NCBI GenBank assembly: GCA_963924555.1
Contig: OZ004591.1
Span: 1,426,001 to 1,490,000, forward strand
Reading direction: 5' to 3'
Length of the DNA: 64,000 nucleotides
Source: Crambe crambe
Lineage: Eukaryota; Porifera; Demospongiae; Poecilosclerida; Crambeidae
The notes under the pieces were generated by a model that was not told where the DNA came from, did not search any database, and worked only from the letters and a program-made list of their open reading frames with translations. Shown here one piece after another: positions 247 to 63,924 of this stretch; positions within the stretch are counted from its first letter, which is position 1, and each line of letters begins with the position of its first letter. The position numbers and the translations under genes are program-made.

Positions 247-387
247 CCACATCACTTGGTTCAGAGATCCCAATTTGAAATGTAACAGATGTATTCAAAA
301 TAAGCAAAGAAGTGATCTCAGCACACACCATCACAGTAGTGCCTTCAGCCCCTTCTAATGTTGTGAAGTTAAAAGCTGCTGTGATAT
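247..387 (-). CDS. array II repeat 7: alpha first-half exon, partner outside window
   Basis: A 141 bp exon encoding DITAAFNFTTLEGAEG and VCAEITSLLILNTSVTFQIG, ending in a GTAAGT donor at 241-246. By the rule seen everywhere else, an alpha second-half exon should follow beyond the left edge. Confidence 0.93.

Positions 388-63924: not shown

Follow-up and report, generated by a model that had tools for sequence, protein, structure and literature searches.

A giant Calx-beta gene in the sponge Crambe crambe and its predicted product, a secreted extracellular fibre

A 64,000-nucleotide stretch of Crambe crambe DNA (OZ004591.1, positions 1,426,001 to 1,490,000; the window) carries a long series of Calx-beta exons on its minus strand, which raises the questions of whether they belong to one gene and what kind of protein that gene makes. 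The original prediction had read them as one intact gene of at least 121 exons and 60 Calx-beta domains that runs beyond the window and is possibly related to the sponge aggregation factors (AFs). Like the AF model species Clathria (Microciona) prolifera, C. crambe belongs to the demosponge order Poecilosclerida. The gene was located on chromosome 11, contig OZ004591.1 (C14), at C14:1360281-1489924, minus strand. C14 coordinates equal window coordinates plus 1426000, and negative coordinates denote bases before the first base of the window. Genome scans covered 143,139,886 bases in 119 contigs.

A purpose-written gene finder combined 3-periodic Markov scoring of coding sequence with matrices for donor and acceptor sites and phase-aware dynamic programming, and was trained on the window's own self-similar frames and on the tail exons common to the paralogues. 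Flanks of 200 kb were added to the window (264 kb total), and gene starts and ends were permitted anywhere. The minus-strand output was a single chain of 270 internal exons, one first exon and one last exon. These 272 exons hold 46,719 coding bases, 265 of them are phase 1-1, and the sole stop is the last codon. The gene spans about 129.6 kb from ATG to stop, with one start and one stop overall, and about 65.7 kb of it lies beyond the window. The 121 exons inside the window, from the ATG at 63924 to the exon at 247-387, agree with the predicted exon count, and the chain is indeed incomplete there, since a little under half of its exons are inside. Exon number shifts by a few with model settings (121 versus 122 in the window) and several tail exons were re-read; the figures for the whole gene, about 272 exons and 15,600 residues, are thus approximate. 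With the same parameters, the 64 kb gave 122 exons and 20,880 coding bases on the minus strand, 5 exons and 273 coding bases on the plus strand, and 0, 0, 2, 5, 0, and 0 exons in six order-2 Markov sequences.

All splice sites of the model are GT donors and AG acceptors, the only kinds it permits, and the introns have a median length of 254 bases with a longest of 2,228 (n = 269). The claim that every junction is phase 1 holds for 119 of the 120 window introns; the exception, 29111/28918, is phase 0 and sits in a weakly supported middle stretch. The least certain exons of the gene are those at 27984-40406. Additional exons between the halves of type C domains (43585-43716, 54696-54779, and 57021-57108) were dropped by a stricter model, and the repeat unit is complete without them. 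The gene finder itself picked an internal Met at 63882 as the start. The ATG at 63924 was adopted instead because the first-exon peptide is conserved and opens four other genomic copies, at 70-76% identity. The last two exons were placed at -64891..-64733 and -65719..-65583, where the kinds of splice site agree across six tail copies. The stop of the terminal exon is at the same point in all six of these, and the last two residues differ in the C13 copy.

All features of the gene lie on the minus strand. Exon 1 (63840..63924) carries the ATG and the predicted signal peptide, MAELSRAVILLQLLMLFMGADNVAGQ, which was read directly from the exon and is also indicated by first-exon conservation. Exons 2-5 (59528..62565) form a head module of two Calx-beta domains, defined by the gene model and Pfam; the Pfam Calx-beta match (E 3.9e-11, residues 128-251) corresponds to the second domain, and the first has no separate match. 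Exons 6-47 (40810..59290) contain a three-domain unit (types A, B, and C) in seven copies of 6 exons each. Exons 48-64 (28849..40406) are a middle part of about nine unrepeated Calx-beta domains (Pfam E 6.1e-19, two stretches). Exons 65-121 (247..28704) begin a 5-domain array of types D1-D5 with 10 exons per unit (Pfam E 1.4e-24, one stretch). Within it, exons 109-112 (4407..5841) are a shortened D1-D5 unit, the first of a 32-domain block; its twin lies outside the window at -24762..-23324. The domain total is about 133: 2 in the head, 21 in the 3-domain array, about 9 in the middle, 89 in the 5-domain array, and 12 in the tail, where the middle and tail numbers were obtained by pairing exons. 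About 60 are in the window, as predicted, so the window count stands and the gene is larger.

The middle part, which has the weakest exons (scores 1.8-37), is where the chain might instead be two or more adjacent genes joined by the gene finder, for instance a first that stops near 40 kb and a second that begins near 28 kb. We consider this quite improbable. Phase is continuous, and the gene finder chose no internal first or last exon anywhere in the 272-exon chain, even though it was permitted to do so. The 130 kb contain a single head module and a single tail module, barring weak head cross-matches (E ≥ 0.001) to other Calx-beta exons, and the longest intron is 2,228 bases. The same order of head, unit, middle, unit, and tail recurs within 46 kb in a tandem paralogue (paralogue 2, approximately C14:1301620-1348145). 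This paralogue is colinear through the middle part and has a head, one 3-domain unit, the middle, about two 5-domain units in the order 45, 12345, 123, and a tail. Its ends were placed by head and tail module matches, as the model's own end exons were wrong there. A paralogue that repeats the plan with few units argues for one gene that grew by unit duplication, and the prediction of one intact gene is supported.

Calx-beta identity was assessed with Pfam, the check proposed with the original prediction. Among nine peptides, all seven multi-domain ones matched PF03160 at E ≤ 0.0006, six of them above the curated cut-off, and two short tail pieces had no match. No domain other than Calx-beta was found at E ≤ 0.01 in the seven multi-domain pieces, which represent about one copy of each repeat and leave aside exons 61-69 and all other repeat copies. 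Consensus sequences of six of the eight repeat types matched PF03160 at E ≤ 0.017 (C, 6.2e-6; D1, 0.0049; D2, 4.1e-8; D3, 6.1e-10; D4, 0.0049; D5, 0.017), and two of the eight pass the curated cut-off. Types A and B (14 domains) had no PF03160 match, and the best match for A was another family at E 0.12. Profile-profile alignment to a Calx-beta reference set gave 70.6% for A, 92.2% for B, and 93.6-98.7% for the other six types, against 2.7% at most in 80 column-shuffled controls. The reference set comprised ten tail domains (nine from paralogue 2, themselves outside the Pfam scan, and one from the giant gene), a single head domain, and eight strong Pfam matches on C10. Two exons flanked by phase-1 introns make up nearly every domain, and no Calx-beta domain of the window model is contained in a single exon. 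One tail domain has a third exon and a phase-0 intron, and paralogue 2 has this intron too.

The 5-domain array extends over exons 65-242 and its 89 domains run in the order 45, 12345 x4, 15, 12345 x6, 15, 12345 x6, 123, which is 16 full units and four partial units. The series "15, 12345 x6" occurs twice and constitutes a tandem 32-domain, 29-kb higher-order block. The main alignments between its two copies cover 18,767 bases at 99.07% identity and 7,527 bases at 97.36%. All 62 exon pairs are of equal length, 25 of the 62 introns are unequal, and intron identity is 98.6%. Over 3,621 codons dS was 0.0148 and dN 0.0050, a ratio of 0.34, and the block copies are under purifying selection. The tail gave a dN/dS of 0.28 against paralogue 2 (18/18 exons). 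Constraint is looser in the middle (ratio 0.66) and in three exons of the 3-domain unit (0.75), both compared with paralogue 2, and among the copies of type C (0.76).

The near-identity of the block copies would also be seen if the assembly had set two haplotypes in series and so inflated the length of the gene, and a dS of 0.0148 is, by our estimate, within possible heterozygosity. This explanation is unlikely. There is no N across the 264 kb, and the relevant passage of the genome report describes an assembly built with PacBio and Hi-C data and already purged of 18 haplotypic duplications (PMC12166358). With one copy of the 29-kb block left out, the gene still has about 101 domains and 208 exons. 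The arrangement suggests that the gene grew by block duplication, with the 3-domain unit reaching seven copies, the 5-domain unit 16 full and four partial copies, and the 32-domain block doubled. Given the two-exon layout with phase-1 introns that nearly all domains share, duplication of blocks would leave the frame intact, and unequal exchange may then have lengthened the fibre. The gene would exemplify protein growth by nested block duplication, rendered safe by phase-1 exons.

Several introns contain repeats of their own. A perfect 12-base tandem repeat of TGAGTACAGGAG (52.1 copies, 100% match, 625 bases) occupies window 27285-27909 in intron 66/67 and is probably the cause of a GC-skew peak at 26-28 kb. 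Two perfect runs of the dinucleotide GA, 127 copies at window 8564-8817 and 54 copies at 23893-24000, also lie in introns. A segment of about 1.7 kb in intron 59/60 (window 31620-33282) is 91.8% identical to C14:1515228-1516939 (window-based 89228-90939) and is possibly a mobile element.

The predicted protein has about 15,600 residues, a computed mass of 1.64 MDa, and a computed pI of 4.05. It contains 14.3% Asp plus Glu, 0.37% Lys, 22% Ser plus Thr, and 372 N-x-S/T sequons, and RGD is absent from the whole model protein. These values were computed on a 15,573-letter version of the model in which a few tail exons are wrong. Cys and ligand counts cover 127 of the approximately 133 domains. Exactly two Cys are present in 82 of the 127, and the type consensus sequences of C, D1, D2, D4, and D5 have one Cys in each exon half, which suggests an intradomain disulfide. 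Ligand motifs were scored crudely, at the positions of the ligands in exchanger structures. The strand-A Glu was found in 127/127 domains, D-F/Y in 102/127, E..E in 91/127, and the terminal DxD in 60/127. All four are kept in 28 of the 127, mainly types C and D3, and Ca2+ binding is therefore likely in a minority of domains. The calcium dependence considered in the original prediction is only partly backed by these motifs, and the ligands are degenerate in most repeats.

The chain closes in a Cys-rich module. This final tail part has about 185 residues, with six invariant Cys in the aligned stretch and one more in the exon start. It had no Pfam match, and a six-sequence profile had no PDB-profile match; against NCBIfam, three unrelated matches were returned at E 0.022-0.16, to one member each. 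In single-sequence phmmer searches the module matched an MS2-type coat chain (E 0.0056) and fr capsid (E 0.62), a close copy matched fr capsid (E 1.7), and a divergent copy matched nothing of that kind. A relationship to phage coats was rejected as chance, with no match from the six-sequence profile.

Tail modules were found three times on C14, in the giant gene, in a copy ending near 1301620, and in a copy near 1536295, which places the gene and two paralogues in tandem. C5:2.81 Mb, C1:0.30 Mb, and C13:1.61 Mb carry one more copy each. Matches to parts of the head module were located on C14 at 1489924 (giant gene) and 1348145 (paralogue 2), and elsewhere at C3:5817152, C5:3402173 (exons 1-3), and C11:6840132 (exons 1, 4, and 5); C3:5600008 has head exons 4-5, and a candidate exon 3 lies at 5584774. 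On C3, by coordinates alone, Calx-beta, GPS, and 7tm_2 matches lie downstream of head matches on the same strand; the GPS matches are at 5698845(+) and 5772875(-) and the 7tm_2 matches at 5702060(+), 5772047(-), and 5768659(-). On C11, an 8.5-kb stretch (C11:6839901-6848400) was read. Its first-exon peptide is 78% and its exons 4-5 are 82 and 84% identical to the giant-gene head, and head exons 2-3 were not found in this 8.5 kb. Downstream is an open frame of 1,215 residues with mucin-like, TTTEAPTTMS-like repeats, followed by a GPS match at 6846747 and a 7tm_2 match at 6847026. The C11 gene is a reading of these frames in order because the gene finder left parts unjoined. A row of GPS matches, including the one behind the mucin-like frame, occupies C11:6.83-6.89 Mb. 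By the head module, the nearest kin of the giant gene among those testable appear to be these loci with adhesion-GPCR matches.

These heads lie upstream of GPS and 7tm_2 matches on the same strand on both C3 and C11, as would be expected if the giant gene were itself the ectodomain of an ADGRV1/VLGR1-like adhesion GPCR with its receptor end missed. A signal peptide followed by a long Calx-beta run is a feature of both; a passage of PMC10323441 gives ADGRV1 35 Calx-beta domains together with LamG/PTX, EAR, GAIN/GPS, and 7TM. The giant gene differs in having about 133 Calx-beta domains and a predicted secreted, Cys-rich end. The receptor reading fails at the C-terminus. The chain closes in the Cys-rich module with a terminal stop at an identical position in 6/6 copies, and the next paralogue starts with its own head 12 kb downstream. 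None of the 86 genome GPS matches falls in C14:1296001-1560000, and no 7tm_2 match was in this interval among the matches listed (150 of 233 candidates scored). LamG/PTX and EAR repeats were absent from the pieces scanned with Pfam, a set that leaves exons 61-69 and further repeat copies outside. Neither LamG nor 7TM domains, which the original prediction had suggested looking for downstream, appeared in these scans, and a missed receptor end is very improbable.

The shared heads point to a relationship between two kinds of protein. We tentatively propose that the signal-peptide/Calx-beta head was shuffled between adhesion GPCRs, one of them mucin-stalked, and giant secreted fibres with a new Cys-rich end. 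Matching heads could bind each other, and the fibre could then tether the receptors or act as their partner outside the cell, its length being tuned by 3-, 5-, and 32-domain duplication. The giant gene would connect the secreted Calx-beta fibres of sponges with the heads found at adhesion-GPCR loci and so pose a testable ligand-receptor question.

The giant gene could also be a sponge AF, a secreted proteoglycan for species- or individual-specific Ca2+-dependent cell joining, with a very long Calx-beta arm. The Wreath domain is an AF feature, and a VWD domain is reportedly an AF marker. AF-like traits are present in the predicted extracellular location (signal peptide), the Calx-beta domains, and the gene cluster with its three tail copies on C14, and the predicted protein is acidic and sequon-rich. 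The order is that of the AF model sponge, whose proteins O16859 and O16857 are tabulated with 4 and 15 Calx-beta copies in an excerpt of PMC2805694. The Amphimedon AF genes are described in a passage of PMC10815962 as a cluster for proteoglycans with an extracellular Calx-beta domain, and the giant gene and its two paralogues are also tandem. Against these traits, VWD was absent from the Pfam-scanned pieces and 0 of 30 genome VWD matches fall on C14. The head is common to loci with adhesion-GPCR matches, and there was no sign of positive selection in ratios of 0.27-0.76, which come from one haplotype and are blind to polymorphism. Looser "group 3" AF candidates are mentioned in a portion of PMC8380372, and the absence of VWD therefore does not have to rule out all types of AF. 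AF-family membership is not supported, in this respect departing from the original prediction, and we regard an AF identity as doubtful. C10:8051001-8068000 was examined as an AF candidate because Calx-beta and VWD matches lie 11 kb apart there. It contains, on one strand within 17 kb, Calx-beta frames, a run of near-identical repeats that by motif we take to be EGF-like, and the VWD match, and it was set aside as not a clear AF.

The explanation we prefer, and consider probable, is that one gene codes for a secreted polypeptide of about 15,600 residues with a signal peptide, Calx-beta arrays, and a Cys-rich end, which would form a giant polyanionic fibre for adhesion or matrix spacing. A secreted, unusually long sponge protein with Calx-beta throughout is what the original prediction had described, and the model supports it. 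The product would be glycosylated and partly Ca2+-binding, and given the usual length of such domains the fibre would be very roughly 0.5 micrometre long. An extracellular-fibre function is what we infer from the predicted protein, a Calx-beta chain with that charge and so many sequons, in which no part points plainly to an enzyme or a signalling protein; its plainest role outside the cell would be in adhesion or matrix spacing. The C-terminal module is a likely anchoring or assembly part, and the head, common to loci with adhesion-GPCR matches, a likely contact part.

The domain number is well above the counts found in print, 35 in ADGRV1 (PMC10323441) and a maximum of 41 in a 2009 table (PMC2805694). 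A limited literature search found no published Calx-beta count above 41, which is no proof of a record, and it returned no literature on Crambe crambe and Calx. The sponge AFs (Clathria/Microciona MAF and the Amphimedon AF cluster) are likewise extracellular demosponge Calx-beta proteins from a tandem gene cluster, but they belong to another length class, with O16857_MICPR listed at 15 copies in 2,205 aa versus about 133 (PMC2805694, excerpt). Nematostella A7SVI9 is a tandem Calx-beta giant of an early-branching animal; its 41 copies in 4,953 aa are about a third of the giant gene's domains, and the source table is silent on head, tail, and exon plan (PMC2805694). If transcribed as predicted, the C. 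crambe product would be among very large secreted animal proteins, in the sponge order of the classic AF species.

The Na/Ca exchanger (SLC8/Calx) shares the domain kind, and one giant-gene tail domain matches 3rb5 (E 0.0007, phmmer). Exchanger Calx-beta domains are cytoplasmic and regulatory and are part of a transporter, whereas those of the giant gene would form an extracellular fibre and have paired Cys and degenerate ligands. Across the genome there were 1,021 first-look Calx-beta candidates (150 scored), and they cluster densely at C10:6.13-6.58 Mb and C3:5.60-5.82 Mb. One match above the cut-off (C9:4224783-4225019, minus strand; E 5.5e-8) lies inside a stop-free frame of 10,128 codons, which is very unusual for an animal genome and is possibly a single-exon giant or foreign DNA.
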